Positions 5,460 through 30,042 of a DNA stretch of 51,824 nucleotides are shown one piece after another. Origin of the DNA: Pseudomonadota bacterium (GTDB lineage: Bacteria > Pseudomonadota > Gammaproteobacteria > Burkholderiales > Burkholderiaceae_C); contig JAJZEB010000011.1 in assembly GCA_021805805.1 (NCBI GenBank), positions 1 to 51,824 on the forward strand, read 5' to 3'. The position numbers and the translations under genes are program-made. The notes beneath the pieces were generated by a model. The model did not search any database. It worked only from the letters and a program-made list of their open reading frames with translations, and was not told the origin of the DNA. How positions within the stretch are numbered: the stretch's first letter is position 1; the number at the start of each line of letters is the position of its first letter.

Positions 5460-6725
5460 TCAGGCGCTGCCGAACAGACCGCTCAAGCCGCCGTAAACGC
5501 CCAGCGCCGAGGTCAGCACGACCACTGCGAGCACCACCGCCAGGTAGACGCCGCGCGGCCGGTGCGCCGGCGGCAGCGCCTTCATCGCCAGCGCGACGAG
5601 GAATCCGAGCACCAGCGGCAACAGCAGCGCGTTCATGACCTCGACGCCGACCGACAGCGCGACCAGGTCCGGAGCCAGCGCGACGATCAGCGCGCCGCCG
5701 ATCACCCCGGCACTGAACACGATGTAGAACCACGGTGCCTCGAGCGGGTGATGCTCGAGCGAGTGCTTGTAGCCGGTGACTTCGCCGAAACCCCACGCCG
5801 CGGCCAGTGCGACGACGATGGCCGCGACCATCGCCGCGCCGAGCATTCCCAGCCCGAACAGCGTGCGTCCGAGCAGCGGGCCGAGGAACGGAGTCAGCGC
5901 CTGCGCCACCTGGCCGACCGTGTTCAGCGGCGCGCTGTGGTGTCCGGCCCACAGCGTGGCCGCGGCCACCACCAGCACCGCGGCCATCACCACCTGGGTG
6001 ATCAGCGCGCCCAGCGCGGTATCCCAGCGCGCCGCCGCGTACTGTTGCGGCTGCAGCCCCTTGTCGGCGACCGCGGATTGCTGGTAGAAGACCATCCACG
6101 GCATGATCACCGCGCCGATGTTGGCCGCGACCAGGTACCAGTAGCCGCGGTCGTGCAGCGGAACGCCGAGCATGCCATGCCACAGCGCTGTGCCATGCAC
6201 CGGCGCGCGCAGCGCGACCCAGATGAACACCAGCTCGAACAGACCCAGCGCGATCGCCACCCGTTCGACCCGTCGGTAGCTTCCGGTCCAGACGATCAGC
6301 AGCAGGAAGCCTGCGGCCAGGCTCAGGCTGACGCCGCGGCCGATGCCGAACAGCTCGGCCACGCCGGCCACGCCGGAGAATTCGCTGAGCAGCGCACCGA
6401 CCGTGGCAACCGCGAGTCCGCCGACCGAGACCCACGCCCAGCCCGTGCCGAAGCACTCGCGTATCAGCTCGCCGTGCCCCTTGCCGGTGAAAATGCCCAA
6501 TCGGACTGTCAGTTCCTGCACGACGTACAGGATCGGCACGAGCAGCAACTGCAACGCGAGCAGGCGGTAACCCCATTGCGCACCGCTTTGCGCGGCCGTC
6601 AGCACGCTGCCGACATCGGTGTCGGCCAGCATGACCACGAGCCCGGGGCCGAGCACGGACAGAAAAATCCGCCACCGCGCGGCGCGCGACACGCCGACCG
6701 CGGTCGGATTCAACGACGAGTTCAT
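5460..6725 (-). CDS. Nramp-family divalent metal transporter, atypical site
   Basis: A 421-residue protein with about 11 hydrophobic segments and the Nramp fold pattern: SGAQWGY after helix 1, ELTVRLGIFTGKGHGELI, and EHHPLEAPWFY. Helix 1 carries ADTDVGS where canonical MntH/Nramp has DPGN, and helix 6 has MPWM instead of MPH. It therefore belongs to a divergent branch whose substrate cannot be assumed to be manganese. A Fur-like box 28 bases upstream of the ATG suggests iron-responsive control. The ATG at 6725 is the only plausible start before the promoter region. Confidence 0.85.
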   Translation of the reverse strand: MNSSLNPTAVGVSRAARWRIFLSVLGPGLVVMLADTDVGSVLTAAQSGAQWGYRLLALQLLLVPILYVVQELTVRLGIFTGKGHGELIRECFGTGWAWVSVGGLAVATVGALLSEFSGVAGVAELFGIGRGVSLSLAAGFLLLIVWTGSYRRVERVAIALGLFELVFIWVALRAPVHGTALWHGMLGVPLHDRGYWYLVAANIGAVIMPWMVFYQQSAVADKGLQPQQYAAARWDTALGALITQVVMAAVLVVAAATLWAGHHSAPLNTVGQVAQALTPFLGPLLGRTLFGLGMLGAAMVAAIVVALAAAWGFGEVTGYKHSLEHHPLEAPWFYIVFSAGVIGGALIVALAPDLVALSVGVEVMNALLLPLVLGFLVALAMKALPPAHRPRGVYLAVVLAVVVLTSALGVYGGLSGLFGSA

Positions 6726-23145: not shown

Positions 23146-23627
23146 CGGGGCGCTGCGCGCAGTCCGCGCACGTCGTCGACCCTGGAGCGTTCATCTCCGT
23201 CCGGCTTGCCAGCCGCAGCCCCGGGGACTTCCAGGGCGGCAGTTTTCCATATCGTGCTGACACCTGGATCGCGTGGGGGGCGAAGCGACTGGGCTCGGCC
23301 ATCTGCCTGCATCGCGTAGGCGCGTGGCGACTGGCCCCTGCGCACGGCCGGGCGTCGGGGCGGTCGACCCCTGCGGGGCCGACTGCGCTTGCGCTGCTCG
23401 GGCTGCAGGCGCGCGGCGGAACTCGCTACGCGCGCTGGCGCGCGCTGCGCTCGAACAACCGCCGCGAGCTTGATGGTGGAAGCGCGCTGCGCGCGCCGCC
23501 TGCACCCCTGCGCTGCTCGCCGCCCCGAAGCCGGCCGTGCGCAGAGCCCAGTCGCCACGCGCCGCCACCGTCCGTTGCGCTCGACGAACCACCAACCCAA
23601 CCCGAACGGAGCAGCCCGCGCCGTTCG

Positions 23628-23955
23628 AGCCGGAGCGCGCACCCCGCGCCACCCATTCGCCCCGGAGCGTGTAGCCGCGTCCGGTGGACGGCTGACGCGC
23701 AAAGCCGGAGCGTGCGTCCCGCGCCACCCATTCGCCCCGGAGCGTGTAGCCGCGTCCGGTGGACGGCTGACGCGCAAAGCCGGAGCGTGCGTCCCGCGCC
23801 ACCCATTCGCCCCGGAGCGTGTAGCCGCCTCCGGTGGACGGCTGACGCGCAAAGCCGGAGCGTGCACCCCGCGCCACCCATTCGCCCCGGAGCGTGTAGC
23901 CGCGTCCGGTGGACGGCTGACGCAGAAAGCCGGAGCGCGCACCCCGCGCCACCCA
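23628..23955. repeat. 75-base tandem repeat, four full copies plus partial ends
   Basis: Full units start at 23651, 23726, 23801 and 23876, each opening ACCCATTCGCCCCGGAGCG. A partial unit precedes (23628-23650) and five bases of another follow. Units 1 and 2 are identical; unit 3 has a C for G in CGCGTCC, and units 3 and 4 have ACCCC instead of GTCCC. The period is a multiple of three and every minus-strand frame stays open, so open frames across it are not evidence of coding. Confidence 0.9.
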
Positions 23956-24012
23956 GGACGCGAGCCGTCGCAGAGCCGCCTCAAGGCGGCGAGCGGTCCC
24001 CCTCGGGGGGAA

Positions 24013-24051: not shown

Positions 24052-25353
24052 TCACCCCCCCTGCCCGGGATGCATCACCTTGTCCTGCAGGCGCTTGAAG
24101 CCGATCAGCTTGAGCACGTATTTCTCGTAGATCGGCTCCGAATTGCCTGTCTTCATCTTGCGCATGAAATACTTCTCGAAGGCGATCTTGGCCAGGTGCA
24201 CCCACTTGCCCGAACCGAACCAGTTGACGTCGCGTGGGGGAATCTGCGGTATCGCCGCGAACGCCGCGCCGGTGGTGCCGAAATCGGCCAGGCAGATCGC
24301 CTGCCACGTCCCCTTGTGGGTCGGCTCCTGCCCGGCGAGCTCCTCCTCCAGGTTGTGCACGATCGCGGTCACCATCGACTCGATCATGTAACCGGTCTTC
24401 GGCACTCCGGTAGGAACGGGGCTTGGCGACACCGGAGGAATCGCGATGCAAACTCCGGCCGAATAGATGTTCCTGTACTTCGGGCTGCGCTGGTTCGAGT
24501 CGACGATGACGAAACCGCGCGGATTGCACAGACCGGGCACCGCAGCCACCGCGTCGACTCCCTTGAACGCCGGAAGCATCATCGCATGCTTGAACGGCAG
24601 CTCGTGCTTTTTCAGCACATTGCCCTGCATATCGAGTTCATCGACGTACATCTTTCCCGCTTCGACTTTGGTCGTGCGCGCGTTCGTGATCCAGCGCACG
24701 TCATGGTCGCGGAACTCGTGCTCCATGATGCCCTTCGAATCGCCGACGCCGTCGAGCCCGAGGTGGCCGATGTACGGCTCCGAGGTGACATAGGTCATCG
24801 GAACCTTGCTGCGCATGCGCTTCTTGCGCAACGCTGCGTCGAGGATCATCGTGTACTCGTAGGCCGGGCCGAAACAGCTCGCTCCGGGCATCGCGCCGAC
24901 GATCACCGGCCCGGGAGCTTCAAGCAGCCGCTGGAAATCCTCGAAGCACTTCTCGGCGTGGTCGATCGAGCAGACCGACTGGGTGTGTCCGCCATGCGGC
25001 CCGGCGCCGTCGACCTCGTCGAACATCAGCTTCGGCCCGGTGGTGACGATCAGGTAATCGTAGGTGACCTTGTCGCCGCTTTGCAGGGTGATGACGCTGG
25101 CATCGGCGTCGATCGACGTCGCCGGCTGGGCGATGAAGTCGATTCCCTTGCGCTGCAGGTACGGCGCGATCGGAAACACCACCTCGTCGCGCGCGCGCCA
25201 GCCGACCGCCACCCAAGGGTTCGACGGCACGAACTGGAAATAGTCGACGGCGTTGATCACCGTGACCTTGTGCTCGCGCCCGAGCTTGGCCTGAACCTCG
25301 TACGCCGCGGGCAGGCCGCCGATGCCGGCGCCAAGTATGACGATGTGAGCCAT
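24052..25353 (-). CDS. sqr: sulfide:quinone oxidoreductase
   Basis: A 433-residue peripheral membrane flavoprotein that oxidises sulfide to sulfane sulfur or polysulfide and reduces quinone. It closely follows the Acidithiobacillus ferrooxidans enzyme as I recall it: FAD motif GAGIGGLPAAYE, DYFQFVPSNPWVAVGW, and YIGHLGLDGVGDSKGI. All three redox cysteines are present: Cys128 (QSVCSIDHAE), Cys160 (GASCFGPAYEY) and Cys354 (AICLADFG). ATG 25353 has an excellent AGGAGGAA site. No signal peptide is seen, as usual for SQR. It diverges from the YeeE/YedE pair, with a probable FNR-type site between. Confidence 0.93.
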   Translation of the reverse strand: MAHIVILGAGIGGLPAAYEVQAKLGREHKVTVINAVDYFQFVPSNPWVAVGWRARDEVVFPIAPYLQRKGIDFIAQPATSIDADASVITLQSGDKVTYDYLIVTTGPKLMFDEVDGAGPHGGHTQSVCSIDHAEKCFEDFQRLLEAPGPVIVGAMPGASCFGPAYEYTMILDAALRKKRMRSKVPMTYVTSEPYIGHLGLDGVGDSKGIMEHEFRDHDVRWITNARTTKVEAGKMYVDELDMQGNVLKKHELPFKHAMMLPAFKGVDAVAAVPGLCNPRGFVIVDSNQRSPKYRNIYSAGVCIAIPPVSPSPVPTGVPKTGYMIESMVTAIVHNLEEELAGQEPTHKGTWQAICLADFGTTGAAFAAIPQIPPRDVNWFGSGKWVHLAKIAFEKYFMRKMKTGNSEPIYEKYVLKLIGFKRLQDKVMHPGQGG

Positions 25354-25516
25354 CTGATCGTTCCTCCTAGTCGATGCTGCCTTGTCATGATGCGACCGCC
25401 GCGATTGCCGCATCCCAGCTGCCGTTGTGGCGTCGCGCACCGCCGAAAAAAGTCAGCGAAGCATAGCGAGCACGCCGGCGCGCGGCGTCAGCGCCAACCC
25501 GCGGTTGGTGCGCGTA

Positions 25517-25530
25517 TTGACCTGCATCAA
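25517..25530. promoter_or_regulatory. FNR/ANR/DNR-type box
   Basis: TTGACCTGCATCAA matches the FNR-family consensus TTGATNNNNATCAA at nine of ten fixed positions. It sits about midway between the divergent sqr and YeeE starts, roughly 164-170 bases from each. It suggests oxygen- or NO-responsive control of one or both units. The regulator is not in the window. Confidence 0.6.
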
Positions 25531-25576
25531 GTTCCGTGAGGCGGGTTCGGTGTTTGTCCTAGGATCGTGAACCCTA

Positions 25577-25592
25577 ATACCCCCACGGGCAT
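25577..25592. promoter_or_regulatory. candidate CsoR/CstR-family operator over the YeeE -35 region
   Basis: ATACCCCCACGGGCAT has the symmetric pattern AT-N-CCC-N4-GGG-N-AT, like operators of CsoR-family repressors, which include persulfide sensors (CstR). It covers the expected -35 position for the TATACT at 25607-25612, where bound repressor would block transcription. No CsoR-family gene is visible nearby. Confidence 0.4.
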
Positions 25593-25606
25593 AGGACAAA
25601 GGTGTC

Positions 25607-25612
25607 TATACT
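25607..25612 (+). promoter_or_regulatory. -10 element for the YeeE/YedE unit
   Basis: TATACT, 85 bases before the first YeeE ATG. No good -35 is present at the right distance, consistent with an activated or tightly controlled promoter. The right arm TAGGACAAA of the inverted repeat occupies the spacer. Confidence 0.5.
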
Positions 25613-25696
25613 GAATTTTCATCGGTGTTTCGCGATCCAGCCCATGATCCACAGCAAACACCGAGACGCCATGCAACCCGAGGAGTGCAACACCCG

Positions 25697-26203
25697 ATGA
25701 AACGTCCGCTTCCACTTTGGAATCCTTACCTCGCCGGCATCGTGCTCGGCCTGGGCCTGCTGGTGACCTTCGTCGTCACCGGCAACGGCTACGGCGCCAC
25801 CGGGGCGACAACGCGCGCCACGGCGGTGATCGCCGGCCACCTGGCGCCGTCGCTGGTCGCGCCGCACACCTATCTGCACGGGTCGTACGTGGCCGGGTTG
25901 AACTCCTGGATCGTCTGGGAGGTCGTCGGCCTGGCCATCGGTGCGTTGATCGGCAGCATGCTGGCCGGGCGCTTCCGCTTCGAAGTCGACGGCCCGCGCC
26001 GCACCGGCAGCAGCGCGCGGCTGGTGCTGGCGCTGCTCGGCGGAACCGCCTCGGGGCTGGGCGCCCGACTGGCGCTGGGCTGCACCAGCGGCCTGGGGCT
26101 GTCGGGTGCTGCCGTGCTGGCCGCGTCCGGGTTCCTGTTCCTGATCGGATTCTTCATCGCCGGCGCGTTGTTCGGCACCCTGACCAAAGGACTCTGGAAA
26201 TGA
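25697..26203 (+). CDS. YeeE/YedE-family sulfur transport protein, first half
   Basis: A 168-residue membrane protein with about four hydrophobic segments. The motif LALGCTSGLGLSG carries conserved Cys129; this family includes thiosulfate and sulfur-compound importers (TsuA/YeeE) in which such cysteines contact the sulfur atom. It is a half-length form that should work with the next gene. GGAG lies a few bases before ATG 25697. Its stop overlaps the next start (ATGA at 26200-26203). The transported species is inferred, not shown. Confidence 0.87.
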   Translation: MKRPLPLWNPYLAGIVLGLGLLVTFVVTGNGYGATGATTRATAVIAGHLAPSLVAPHTYLHGSYVAGLNSWIVWEVVGLAIGALIGSMLAGRFRFEVDGPRRTGSSARLVLALLGGTASGLGARLALGCTSGLGLSGAAVLAASGFLFLIGFFIAGALFGTLTKGLWK

Positions 26204-26793
26204 GCTTGCCTCTCGGTTATACAGGCCCGGTTTCCGGCATCGTGCTCGGCCTGGTGTTCGGCTACGCGCTGGAAAACGCCGGCTTCGGCAGCAGCTGCAA
26301 ATTGACCGCGCAACTGCGCTTCCAGGACTGGGCGGTGTTCAAGGTGATGTTCACCGCGATCATCGTGGCCTCCGGTGGCCTGTACCTGCTGCAGGCGCTG
26401 GGCATGGTCAACGTGGTCAACGATCTGTTCGTGCCATCGGTGTTCCTGTGGGGCAGCTCGATCGGCGGGGTGCTGATCGGCGCCGGCATGGCGCTGGGCG
26501 GGTACTGCCCCGGCACGTCGATCGTGGCGCTGTTCTCGGGCAAGCTCGACGGCTTGCTGTTCCTGCTTGGAATCGGGCTGGGCACGCTGGTGTTCAATGC
26601 GTTCGCACCGCAACTCGAGGCGTGGGCCTGGAAGCAGACCGGCCCTGACTCGCTGACGCTGCCGCAATTGCTGCATCTGCCGGCCTGGCTGGTCTGGGCG
26701 CTGCTGCTGGCGGTGTTGCTGGCGATCGGCTTCCTGACGCGGACGTCGCGTGCGCCGGACGCCGGGGCCACGATGGCCGCACAGCGCGGCTGA
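26200..26793 (+). CDS. YeeE/YedE-family sulfur transport protein, second half
   Basis: A 197-residue membrane protein with five or six hydrophobic segments and two family cysteine motifs, GFGSSCKLT (Cys33) and ALGGYCPGTS (Cys103). It is translationally coupled to the first half. Pairs like this (PmpA/PmpB type) commonly lie beside SQR, rhodanese or persulfide dioxygenase genes, as here. Together the two would make a complete transporter for a sulfur compound. Confidence 0.88.
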   Translation: MSLPLGYTGPVSGIVLGLVFGYALENAGFGSSCKLTAQLRFQDWAVFKVMFTAIIVASGGLYLLQALGMVNVVNDLFVPSVFLWGSSIGGVLIGAGMALGGYCPGTSIVALFSGKLDGLLFLLGIGLGTLVFNAFAPQLEAWAWKQTGPDSLTLPQLLHLPAWLVWALLLAVLLAIGFLTRTSRAPDAGATMAAQRG

Positions 26794-26897
26794 TGCAGCG
26801 GACCGCGGGCACGCGTCCGTTCCGTTTATTCGTTCATAATGATGTAGCGCATTAAAACGCGCACGCTGTCTTTCATCCCCCACTCTGGAGTGTCATC

Positions 26898-27152
26898 ATG
26901 GCCCAACGCCGAATCCGACTTTCCCAAGCCCTGCCGCTGCTGGCGCTGGCCGCGACGGTCGTCGCACCAATGCCGCAGGCGCTGAACCGCGTCTCGCCGG
27001 TACCTTCCGCGCTCGCTGCCGGCAATCCGTGCGCGCCGAGCAATCCGTGCGCGCCCGCTGCAGGCAGCAACAAGCAAAAGGCCGGCAACCCGTGCGCGCC
27101 GGCGGCGTCGAAGAAACACAAATCGGGCAACCCCTGCGCGCCGTCGAACTGA
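26898..27152 (+). CDS. small secreted protein with four NPCAP cysteine motifs
   Basis: An 84-residue protein with an N-terminal signal: basic start MAQRRIRLSQ, hydrophobic core ALPLLALAATVV, probable cleavage after ALA at about residue 40. The mature part of about 44 residues contains GNPCAP or SNPCAP four times with Cys45, Cys51, Cys66 and Cys80 and no other cysteine, separated by Lys/Ser/Ala linkers. A GGAG site lies just before ATG 26898. The gene follows the YeeE/YedE pair and precedes a hypothetical gene by 16 bases. Metal or sulfane-sulfur binding in the periplasm is a guess; I know no assigned function. Confidence 0.75.
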   Translation: MAQRRIRLSQALPLLALAATVVAPMPQALNRVSPVPSALAAGNPCAPSNPCAPAAGSNKQKAGNPCAPAASKKHKSGNPCAPSN

Positions 27153-27168
27153 GACGGCAACGCTCCGA

Positions 27169-27894
27169 GTGCAGCTCAGCGCAGCGCAGCGACAAATGTG
27201 CCCAACGCCCGCCCTTTCATCCAGCGTCGCGCTCAGCCGTGACGCGCTGGTCGCCGCGCTGCGCTCGGCCCCCCGCCAGCGCCTGCTCGATGCCGCCGCG
27301 AGCCTGCTCGCAGGCATCGAGCGCGATGCCCGGCGCGGACGCAGCGTGCTGAGCGAACTTCTCGGCAGGCGGGGAAGCTGCGAAGTCTGGGAGCACTACC
27401 CTGCCAGGGACGCAATCGATCTGCGCAGCGGCTACCGTTTCTACTATCACGCCCATGCGCAGAACGCACGCGGCGAGCACGGTCACTTCCATGTGTTCGC
27501 CCAGGTTCCGGAGCGTCCCGGACAACCCGACTACACGCATCTGGTGGGCATTTCGGTCGATTCCCGCGGCTTCCCGCTGCGGGTATTCACGACCAACCAG
27601 TGGGTCACCGCAGAGCGCTGGGGGAGCGCCGCGCAGGTGCTGCGCGCGATCGAGCGCATGGACCTGACGCAGGCCCGCCCGACTCGCGTGGCGCGCTGGG
27701 TGCAGGACACCACCCGTTTGTTCACGCCGCAGATCGCCGCGGCATTGCAGCGGCGCGACGCACGCATCGCGCAACGCGCCGCGCGCATCGGTGTCGACGC
27801 CGCGCGCAACGATCGGCGCACCCATGTCGTAAGCCAGTGCCGCGTCGACCTGGCAGCCCAGTTCCGTCATTTGGAGGCAGCCGGAATCGCGTGA
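27169..27894 (+). CDS. conserved hypothetical protein (DUF6969-like), EHGHFHVF motif
   Basis: A 241-residue soluble protein from GTG 27169, or 232 from ATG 27196; neither has a clear ribosome-binding site. The core EHYPARDAIDLRSGYRFYYH (first part) and GEHGHFHVF resemble a family I recall as DUF6969; His-rich placement hints at metal binding or hydrolysis but no catalysis is established. No signal peptide is evident. It is 16 bases after the NPCAP gene, so the two are probably one transcript, closed by a terminator that overlaps its stop codon. Confidence 0.75.
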   Translation: MQLSAAQRQMCPTPALSSSVALSRDALVAALRSAPRQRLLDAAASLLAGIERDARRGRSVLSELLGRRGSCEVWEHYPARDAIDLRSGYRFYYHAHAQNARGEHGHFHVFAQVPERPGQPDYTHLVGISVDSRGFPLRVFTTNQWVTAERWGSAAQVLRAIERMDLTQARPTRVARWVQDTTRLFTPQIAAALQRRDARIAQRAARIGVDAARNDRRTHVVSQCRVDLAAQFRHLEAAGIA

Positions 27895-27920
27895 CCGACA
27901 ACGCGATTCGGCTTTTTTTT
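27880..27920 (+). terminator. intrinsic terminator overlapping the stop of the DUF6969-like gene
   Basis: GCC and GAATCGCGT (27880-27892, one bulged G) pair with ACGCGATTC and GGC (27901-27912), followed by eight T residues (27913-27920). The TGA stop (27892-27894) lies in the end of the left arm and loop, so translating ribosomes could affect folding. Confidence 0.88.
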
Positions 27921-27941
27921 GTGCAACGTGGAGAAGAAAGC

Positions 27942-28925
27942 ATGAAACTCGTGAAGCACCTGATCGCCGCCGGCATCGCCGGATCCGTCGCCCAGTTCGC
28001 CGCCGCGGCGGGCGTTCCGGCCCCATTGGTCTCGCCGCAGTGGCTCAAGGCGCATCTGTCGGACGTGACGGTGGTCGACGTGCGCGAAGGCACCAAGGGC
28101 TTCACTGCCCAGCCCGAGCTGGGCAAGGACAAGAAGGGCCACACCGTGGTCAAGATGACCGGCGGCCACGTCCCTGGCGCGATCGCGGTCGACTTCGACA
28201 AGATCCGCCAGAACAAGGTCGAGGACGGCAAGACCATCAAGGCGCAACTTCCCACCGCCGAGTACTTCGCCAAGGTGCTCGACAGCGCCGGGCTGAACAA
28301 GAGCGACAAGCCGATCGTCATCGTGCCGACCGGTCAGACGGTCGACACCATGGACATGGCCACCCGCCTCTACTTCCAGCTGCGCTATTTCGGCGAGCCG
28401 GCGGCCAAGGTGGCGATCCTCAATGGCGGCGTCAACGCGTGGATCCTGGCCGGCAATGAGGTCAGCACCGCCCCGGCGCCGAGCGCCACCGGTGACTGGA
28501 CCGCAAGCCGCGAGGACAAGTCCATCCTGGCGACGATCGACGAGGTCAAGCAGGGCGTTCATCAAGGCAGCACGCAGTTCATCGACGCGCGCCCGACTCC
28601 GCAGTACCTGGGAATCGTCACCAAGCCGGTGAACAAGAGCGGCGGCCATCTGCCCGGCGCCAAGTCGTTCCCGACCGATGCCATCGTGCGCGACATCGAC
28701 GGCGCCACCCAGTTCATGACCCGCGCCGACTACGAGCGCATTTTCCGCGCCTACGACATCAGCACCCACGCGCCGACCGTGACCTACTGCAACACCGGTC
28801 ACCTGGCGTCGGGCGCCTGGTTCGTGAGCCACGAGATCCTCCGCAACCCGCACGCCAAGCTGTACGCGGGCTCGATGATCGAGTGGACCAATCTGGGCAA
28901 TCCGACGGTGGGTCTGGCCGACTGA
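27942..28925 (+). CDS. periplasmic two-domain rhodanese (thiosulfate sulfurtransferase)
   Basis: A 327-residue exported sulfurtransferase with signal peptide MKLVKHLIAAGIAGSVAQFA. The N-terminal rhodanese domain (about 28-175) has VVDVREG but VPTGQT in place of the active loop, so it is inactive, as is usual. The C-terminal domain (about 195-325) has active loop CNTGHLAS with Cys283, the only cysteine of the mature protein. It would transfer sulfane sulfur, for example from thiosulfate or polysulfide, in the periplasm. It has GGAG upstream, follows a terminator, and so needs its own promoter or readthrough. Confidence 0.9.
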   Translation: MKLVKHLIAAGIAGSVAQFAAAAGVPAPLVSPQWLKAHLSDVTVVDVREGTKGFTAQPELGKDKKGHTVVKMTGGHVPGAIAVDFDKIRQNKVEDGKTIKAQLPTAEYFAKVLDSAGLNKSDKPIVIVPTGQTVDTMDMATRLYFQLRYFGEPAAKVAILNGGVNAWILAGNEVSTAPAPSATGDWTASREDKSILATIDEVKQGVHQGSTQFIDARPTPQYLGIVTKPVNKSGGHLPGAKSFPTDAIVRDIDGATQFMTRADYERIFRAYDISTHAPTVTYCNTGHLASGAWFVSHEILRNPHAKLYAGSMIEWTNLGNPTVGLAD

Positions 28926-28947
28926 CGCGCCGCGCCGCGCGACCCCC

Positions 28948-28969
28948 GGAGGGCGCCGCGGCGCCCTCC
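28948..28969 (+). terminator. hairpin after the periplasmic rhodanese gene
   Basis: GGAGGGCGCC (28948-28957) pairs perfectly with GGCGCCCTCC (28960-28969), followed by TTCGTTTTCG. It begins 22 bases past the stop. Confidence 0.65.
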
Positions 28970-28992
28970 TTCGTTTTCGACGCCGCCGCGCC

Positions 28993-29021
28993 GCCCCAAG
29001 ATTGCTTGACCCCCACGGGGG
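28993..29021 (+). repeat. 29-base dispersed repeat, copy 2 (copy 1 at 190-218, minus strand)
   Basis: GCCCCAAGATTGCTTGACCC and the following nine bases match the reverse complement of 190-218 at 28 of 29 positions. The 3' half is a CCCCC/GGGGG block able to fold on itself. Here it lies between the rhodanese terminator and the murB stop; copy 1 encodes the last codons of the ABC ATPase. Confidence 0.8.
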
Positions 29022-29025
29022 GCGC

Positions 29026-30042
29026 TCAGACGACGACCGGCTCGTATTCGAGGCCGATGCCGAACTTGCTGCGCACGGCCGCGCGCACTGCCTCGGCCAG
29101 CGCGACGATCTCCTCGCCGCTGGCGCCGCCGAGGTTCACCAGCACCAGTGCGTGGCGCGAATCGACCGCCGCGCGGCCGAGCGCGCGCCCTTTCCAGCCG
29201 CAGGCGTCGATCATCCATGCCGCCGCCAGCTTGTAGCTGCCGTCGGCAAGCGGGTAGCTGACGATTTCGGGGTATTCCTGCAGGATCTCGTTGCGGATGG
29301 ACCTGTTGACGACCGGATTCTTGAAAAAACTGCCGGCATTGCCCAGCACCGCCGGGTCCGGCAGCTTGGCGCGCCGGATCTGGCACACCGCGTCGAATAC
29401 CTGCTGCGCGTCGGGCGCCGGCGCGTGCGCGAAACGCCGCGCCAAGTCGGCGTAGCCGATCTGGGGCACCCACGGTCGCGCCAGCCGCAGCCGCACCCTG
29501 GTGATCACCGACTTGCCGGCCAGCTCGCGCTTGAACAGGCTGTCGCGATAGCCGAAGCGGCACGCCGCCGCGCTCAGCGTGACCTCGCGGCCGGTCGTCA
29601 GGTCGACCGCGTCGAGCGATTCGAAGCGCTCGGCCAGCTCGACACCGTAGGCGCCGATGTTCTGCACCGGCGCGGCGCCGACGGTGCCCGGGATCAGCGC
29701 CAGGTTCTCCAGCCCCGGCAGGCCGCGCTGCAGCGTCCAGCTGACCAGCTCGTGCCAGCGCACGCCTGCGCCGGCCTCGACGACGCAGGCTTCGGCGTCG
29801 TCGCGCAGGACGCGCACACCGCCGATCTCGACCTTGACCACCAGCTGCGTCGGATCGCGCGTGAGCAGAAGATTGCTGCCGCCGCCGAGGATCAGCTTCG
29901 GCGCCGTGCCCAGCTGCGGATCGTCGACCAGCCGCCGCACCGCGCGCGCGTCGTGCACACGCACCAGGCGCGCCGCACGCGCGGCGACGCCGAAGGTGTT
30001 CATCGCGTCGAGCGCGACGTCGTGTTCGAGCTGCAGGTCCAT
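29026..30042 (-). CDS. murB: UDP-N-acetylenolpyruvoylglucosamine reductase
   Basis: A 338-residue FAD enzyme completing UDP-MurNAc synthesis for peptidoglycan. FAD-binding [11 protein letters not shown], type I active-site segment FGYRDSLFK, the catalytic Ser in [10 protein letters not shown], and the C-terminal GIGLEYEP with the catalytic Glu are present. ATG 30042 is the natural start. It diverges from yajQ. Confidence 0.96.

Follow-up and report, generated by a model that had tools for sequence, protein, structure and literature searches.

A conserved gene pair for an exported-looking NPC-repeat cysteine protein and a DUF6969 protein beside YeeE/YedE and rhodanese genes in Proteobacteria

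Bufferins are Sec-exported cysteine peptides with copper-binding cysteines modified by MNIO enzymes, the precursor gene preceding the MNIO gene; in the sections of PMC12452194 consulted here, cytochrome c fusions are known among bufferins, and sigma and anti-sigma genes are reported in Buf1 clusters. How sulfur is imported is poorly understood according to the consulted sections of PMC11582611, which present YeeE-like SoxT proteins as sulfur importers. The same sections describe PmpA and PmpB, of about 130 aa, as the C-half and the N-half of YeeE/YedE, and report for those of Hyphomicrobium denitrificans, which adjoin alcohol-oxidation genes, no evidence of serving oxidative sulfur metabolism. 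In these sections PmpA, PmpB and SoxT are described without a gene of the NPC or DUF6969 type. In SoxY and other periplasmic sulfur carriers the cysteine sits on an exported, flexible protein of a sulfur-oxidation context.

The window analysed here, a stretch of 51,824 nucleotides from a genome of the same genus as G032, contains a plus-strand gene (26898-27152) for an 84-residue protein with four NPCAP motifs, hereafter the NPC protein. Its N-terminus opens MAQRRIRLSQALPLLALAATVVAPMPQAL and is signal-peptide-like as judged by eye. The ~43 residues after this N-terminus hold the four NPCAP motifs, starting at residues 43, 49, 64 and 78, with Lys-rich linkers and a C-terminus reading NPCAPSN, and the only cysteines (45, 51, 66 and 80) each lie inside an NPCAP. 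Synonymous codon use differs between the copies, which argues that the pattern is maintained in the protein and is no recent DNA repeat, and three or more NPC were reached in 0 of 200,000 residue shuffles of the protein. No Pfam or NCBIfam family matched it up to E 1. Among 58 NPC proteins from the best 80 of at least 589 DUF6969 loci, Asn-Pro precedes 218 of the 233 cysteines counted from the first NPC onward. NPC-type strings and Asn-Pro-Cys in the open-access literature led mostly to aquaporins and to nothing matching this protein; the name "NPC repeats" is in use for the Clostridioides difficile protein CdeC.

Sixteen nucleotides further on (27153-27168) and on the same strand begins the DUF6969 gene (27169-27894, GTG start, 241 aa), the product of which matches PF22308 over profile positions 2-201 of 201 (E 1.3e-56, 191.8 bits, gathering cut-off 27) and has no evident signal peptide by eye. 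The pair is closed by an intrinsic terminator at 27884-27920 on the plus strand, with a stem at 27884-27909 and a T-run to 27920, which overlaps the end of the DUF6969 gene; the folding energy of its 61-nt stretch is -21.6 kcal/mol (z -2.28) and its end lies 21 nt before the rhodanese ATG at 27942. A promoter scan of 25400-29100 found none. The earlier note, with a range (26794-27920) that begins ~100 bp before the NPC gene, had described the motifs, the signal peptide, the 16-base gap, a DUF6969-like partner with an EHGHFHVF motif and the terminator, and all of these were borne out, the signal peptide by eye.

Upstream of the NPC gene are two plus-strand genes for YeeE/YedE (Sulf_transp) half-proteins, one PmpA-like (25625-26203; PF04143, 2.3e-21, profile 176-308 of 310) and one PmpB-like (26200-26793; 1.1e-16, profile 4-155 of 310). 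They match opposite halves of PF04143, the C-half gene standing first and the N-half gene second with a shared ATGA overlap, and thus correspond to PmpA and PmpB, with 192 and 197 aa as called against about 130 aa in the consulted sections of PMC11582611. On the other side of the pair the plus-strand rhodanese gene (27942-28925; PF00581, 1.4e-18, 67.6 bits, cut-off 22.2, in two stretches) encodes a protein with a signal-peptide-like N-terminus and, by eye, a CNTGHLASG loop in its second domain. The cysteine of this loop is presumably the active-site residue. Both had been named beforehand and are confirmed by Pfam. The third neighbour that had been named, SQR, is a minus-strand FAD/NAD(P) oxidoreductase (24052-25440) that Pfam assigns to Pyr_redox_2 (3.5e-16); we take it to be SQR-like, in line with the earlier note. 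Its frame is open to 25440, its true start being probably further in, and it is an optional neighbour. Several near-identical repeats, seen as GANGWRG... peptides in minus-strand frames, occupy 23400-23980.

The HxH...EHGHFH...H core of DUF6969 was invariant in 62 sequences, and the invariant residues include H94, H96, E103, H106, H108, H124, R196 and D197. This set of His, Glu, Asp and Arg looks catalytic or metal-binding. The AlphaFold2 model of the protein reached a pLDDT of 92.4 and a second DUF6969 model was also confident. Foldseek found no match at E <= 0.001 for either model in the PDB or for the first model in BFVD, and PDB sequences gave none against the 62-row profile up to E 1. Viral contigs gave no match to the single sequence and one partial match to the alignment. 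No mention of DUF6969 was found in the open-access literature, nor any description of an NPC-DUF6969 system. That neither profile nor Foldseek supplies a PDB relative that would prove catalysis is in keeping with an alternative in which unmodified NPC cysteines carry persulfide and DUF6969 acts as a chaperone, a sensor or an export hold-back factor instead of a modifying enzyme. Genomes that have NPC proteins and no DUF6969 match (see below) point the same way; the catalytic- or metal-binding-looking residues speak against it, and we regard it as unlikely.

Compared with bufferins as they appear in the consulted sections of PMC12452194, the pair shares a Cys-rich putative precursor, here with an N-terminus that is signal-peptide-like by eye, the order of this gene before the gene of the putative enzyme, lipoprotein variants (L066, L069 and L092, by eye) and cytochrome c fusions. 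It differs in its NPC motif, in its sulfur cassette and in a partner that matches DUF6969 and not PF05114; with the Sulf_transp halves and the rhodanese as immediate neighbours, neither the DUF2063 nor the MNIO gene of bufferins adjoins it. The only PF05114 match of the window's genome is on another contig (C36) and two of ten NPC genomes, G014 and G024, have none, so the NPC pair does not depend on MNIO. A strict bufferin was therefore rejected, there being no MNIO (PF05114) in the cluster. The NPC protein resembles SoxY and other periplasmic sulfur carriers in bearing cysteines on an exported, flexible chain within a sulfur-oxidation context and is unlike SoxY in its several cysteines, its DUF6969 partner and a C-terminus of NPCAPSN instead of GGCGG; SoxY was rejected on this C-terminus and on the absence of NCBIfam matches up to E 1. 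Unusual conservation of the NPC signal peptide, sought as a sign of leader recognition, was not found: the N-terminal means were 0.369 for NPC and 0.400 for the adjoining rhodanese (22 representatives) and NPC was higher in 85 of 231 pairs, in a comparison weakened by at least one mis-picked NPC start (L047) and by conserved mature residues in the rhodanese stretch.

The conservation of the locus was followed in the best 80 of at least 589 confirmed DUF6969 loci from named genomes, a set biased to close relatives. An NPC-repeat ORF lies within 3.5 kb in 60 of these best 80 loci, and in 58 an NPC gene stands close to DUF6969 on the same strand. This pair is spread over many families of Proteobacteria, so the expectation that the two genes would be neighbours in other genomes held. 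Cassette genes were counted by tblastn with the window's proteins within 5 kb, the ORF caller being crude, and the 58 NPC loci were set against the 22 of the best 80 that have no solo NPC gene, two of which (L078, L089) carry NPC-P460 fusions; the Fisher tests treat related loci as independent. YeeE/YedE halves were present in 53/58 NPC loci (C-half in 51, N-half in 53) versus 1/22 of the others, the rhodanese in 56/58 versus 4/22 and an SQR homologue in 18/58 versus 1/22. By ORF clusters within 10 kb, SQR-like, FCSD, SoxC, SoxA or SoxY genes occurred in 37/58 versus 2/22, again among the best 80 loci. Among the five NPC loci without YeeE/YedE, the DUF6969 match starts within 0.8 kb of the contig end in four (L036, L044, L060, L064) and the fifth (L076) lies on a short contig that carries the label Alphaproteobacteria. 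The two NPC loci without a separate rhodanese are L076 and L106, and in the latter the rhodanese domain is fused to NPC.

The ORF scan found no nearby Cys-repeat ORF in 20 of the 80 loci, the best of at least 589, and the notion that DUF6969 is always paired was dropped. In two Acidocella loci (L077, L081) DUF6969 stands without a nearby NPC gene and is followed by a gene that by eye resembles a [NiFe]-hydrogenase small subunit. On a contig labelled Simkaniaceae (L102), which may be mis-binned or transferred, DUF6969 is hydrophobic at its N-terminus, and a Cys-rich ORF resembling a lipoprotein is close by.

Across 100 genomes of the family, DUF6969 was found in 14 and the NPC profile in 10. 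All 10 NPC-profile genomes belonged to the 14 with DUF6969, and the other 86 gave no NPC match (Fisher 5.8e-11), the window's own genome being counted in both sets; without it the figures are 9/13 and 0/86. The remaining four DUF6969 genomes (G035, G041, G042, G055) have another Cys-repeat or NPC-fusion ORF beside DUF6969, of the KKCGA, KKCAA, AKCGA or NPC plus cytochrome c type. At one AKCGA-type locus (L193:5099-6282) a DsbD-type membrane protein and a thioredoxin-like protein adjoin the repeat peptide and DUF6969. In a phylum draw DUF6969 was present in 11/299 genomes, nine of which have an NPC or other Cys-repeat ORF somewhere; none was found in the other two, G115 and G262. In the set of 100 genomes a PmpB match under E 1e-20 was obtained in all 10 NPC genomes and in four without the pair (G017, G050, G059, G091). 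The window's rhodanese matches 85 of the 100 at E <= 0.001, some genomes having paralogues, and is less specific to the pair than PmpB; under E 1e-50 it matches the 10 NPC genomes and G084, which is without the pair. The YeeE/YedE halves and the rhodanese thus also exist without the pair, and the pair gives the impression of an addition to a sulfur-import/rhodanese module.

On a quick tree of 102 DUF6969 proteins the solo-NPC label needs at least 6 changes, versus 29.2 in shuffles, which suggests that the linkage is old, has for the most part been retained and was gained independently few times. Two functionally unrelated genes that are neighbours by descent inside a sulfur island would also be clustered in this way, and some DUF6969 genes are located elsewhere. 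We consider this very improbable: the linkage survives deep divergence, the 100 genomes hold no NPC match without DUF6969, and other Cys-repeat types adjoin DUF6969 too.

NPC repeats are also found fused to larger domains. In L106 (3329-3958) NPC repeats and a rhodanese domain (PF00581, 3.5e-13) form one exported-looking protein directly before DUF6969, and in L013 and L023 the repeats are fused to a SoxA/TsdA-type cytochrome c domain. NPC repeats with a cytochrome P460 domain were found above the cut-off in L078 and below it in L021 and L089. Long Cys-repeat arrays with a P460-like domain were seen in L078 (7579-8859), L089 (1269-2387), L021 (213-1241), L122, L123 and L128, the Pfam basis covering L078, L089 and L021. 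A search beyond the locus covered the genomes of 17 of the 20 loci in which the scan saw no Cys-repeat ORF, all 17 lacking a local NPC gene, and found NPC-P460-type proteins elsewhere in 4 of them (those of L088, L096, L099 and L105), the match of L096 with a TAG inside. A further search of 11 of the 20 gave a short NPC-type match in the genome of L071; L097, L104 and L107 were in neither search.

NPC proteins also occur without DUF6969. Of the 299 genomes in the phylum draw, 15 match the NPC profile, 11 of them without a DUF6969 match, and 52 match an NPCAAK-repeat query, 45 of these without a DUF6969 match, some of the 52 being weak and many being plain NPC proteins. The assumption that NPC always needs DUF6969 was dropped on these counts. 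The 52 genomes include 32 from family f32 and 3 from f30. In these two families small NPC proteins and NPC-SoxA/TsdA cytochromes (PF21342) adjoin ArsM-like methyltransferases and multiheme cytochromes, and ArsS-like radical SAM proteins are near in fewer loci. They are like the window protein in bearing NPC repeats on exported-looking proteins and unlike the window pair in having no DUF6969 match and in standing near genes for multiheme cytochromes, methyltransferases and radical SAM proteins. In 11 loci of this type (L174-L184) there was no match to the YeeE/YedE halves, the rhodanese or the SQR of the window. ArsM-like and ArsS-like genes with multiheme cytochromes were seen beside NPC proteins or NPC-cytochromes without DUF6969 in L174, L175 and L182, the same with ArsM-like alone in L183, and multiheme cytochromes with neither in L177. 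Perhaps these proteins constitute a second NPC system. The link of homologues to sulfur or metal genes proposed in the earlier note consequently holds for the pair, which is tied to YeeE/YedE and rhodanese, and not in the same form for NPC proteins of other families, which lack DUF6969 and have cytochromes and ArsM/ArsS-type genes nearby. NPC repeats are a wider motif, and metals and metalloids stay live candidates.

One locus places DUF6969 behind a bufferin-type cluster. In L192 (genome G042) a BufA-like ORF, MNIO (PF05114, 1e-103), DUF2063 and DoxX precede, on the same strand, a KCGA-repeat peptide (5524-5799, ~175 nt beyond the cluster) and DUF6969 (5952-6659). The BufA-like ORF we take to be DUF2282-like. 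After the peptide and DUF6969 a radical SAM/DUF3641 (ArsS-like) gene lies on the opposite strand (L192:2661-8937). Another gene of this locus, presumably for an ECF sigma factor-like protein, has homologues near DUF6969 or NPC genes in L024/L188, L141/L177, L179 and L023/L196.

The main rival explanation is a bufferin-like buffer of thiophilic metals, in which the NPC peptide, whether or not it is modified, would bind ions such as Cu(I) or As(III) in the periplasm and accompany sulfur cassettes because the chemistries of sulfide and metals meet there. It draws on L192, on the many loci where an ArsM-like gene stands near an NPC gene and the fewer with an ArsS-like gene, on a gene that adjoins an NPC-cytochrome in L179 and is near DUF6969 in L189, which we assume to be RND-pump-like, and on closely spaced cysteines, which suit soft metals. 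The steady YeeE/YedE and rhodanese neighbours in the window's branch, the NPC-rhodanese fusion of L106 and the finding of MNIO in a single one of the loci searched (L192) weigh against it, and we rate it as rather doubtful.

The reading that we tentatively prefer, while holding it short of probable, is that DUF6969 modifies or loads the exported NPC peptide for the handling of sulfane sulfur in the periplasm. We infer the catalysis by DUF6969, its chemistry and location and the direction of sulfur flow as follows. The NPC protein would be a Sec-exported cysteine-repeat precursor and DUF6969 its dedicated cytosolic metalloenzyme, which before export would modify the NPC cysteines or load sulfur or metal onto them. 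In the periplasm the exported rhodanese and SQR/Sox chemistry would supply the mature peptide with sulfane sulfur, which it would hand to the PmpA/PmpB (YeeE/YedE) importer. This reading draws on the co-occurrence in the 100 genomes and the synteny with YeeE/YedE and rhodanese, on the fusions to rhodanese and to SoxA/TsdA-type cytochrome c, on the invariant histidine-rich core with two confident models, on a layout of precursor before enzyme that is analogous to L192 and to bufferins as far as the latter are described in the sections consulted, and on sulfur import by YeeE-like SoxT proteins in the consulted sections of PMC11582611. Against it stand NPC proteins without DUF6969, the loci without a Cys-repeat ORF (20 of the best 80 of at least 589), the Hyphomicrobium denitrificans PmpA/PmpB findings in those sections of PMC11582611, the YeeE/YedE halves and rhodanese type without the pair, the lack of unusual signal-peptide conservation in NPC, and other branches with ArsM, ArsS, RND-pump-like genes and one bufferin cluster, which point to metals or metalloids.

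The earlier interpretation is supported in part: both the gene pair and the sulfur context in which it stands are real and conserved, and comparative genomics favours an NPC protein made or matured with its DUF6969 partner. It is possible, though we would not lean on it, that DUF6969 represents a class of peptide-modifying metalloenzymes that is new and has no relation to MNIO, acting on Sec-exported Cys-repeat precursors of the NPC, KCGA and GCC types; in sulfur oxidizers the modified product would serve as a dedicated carrier of sulfane sulfur in the periplasm and supply YeeE/YedE importers. If true, the MNIO enzymes, to which exported Cys-rich peptides have been tied until now, would be joined by an unstudied enzyme family, DUF6969, for which no fold match was found. 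A conserved peptide with its partner between an importer and a rhodanese is a direct candidate for the step at which sulfur is handed over.
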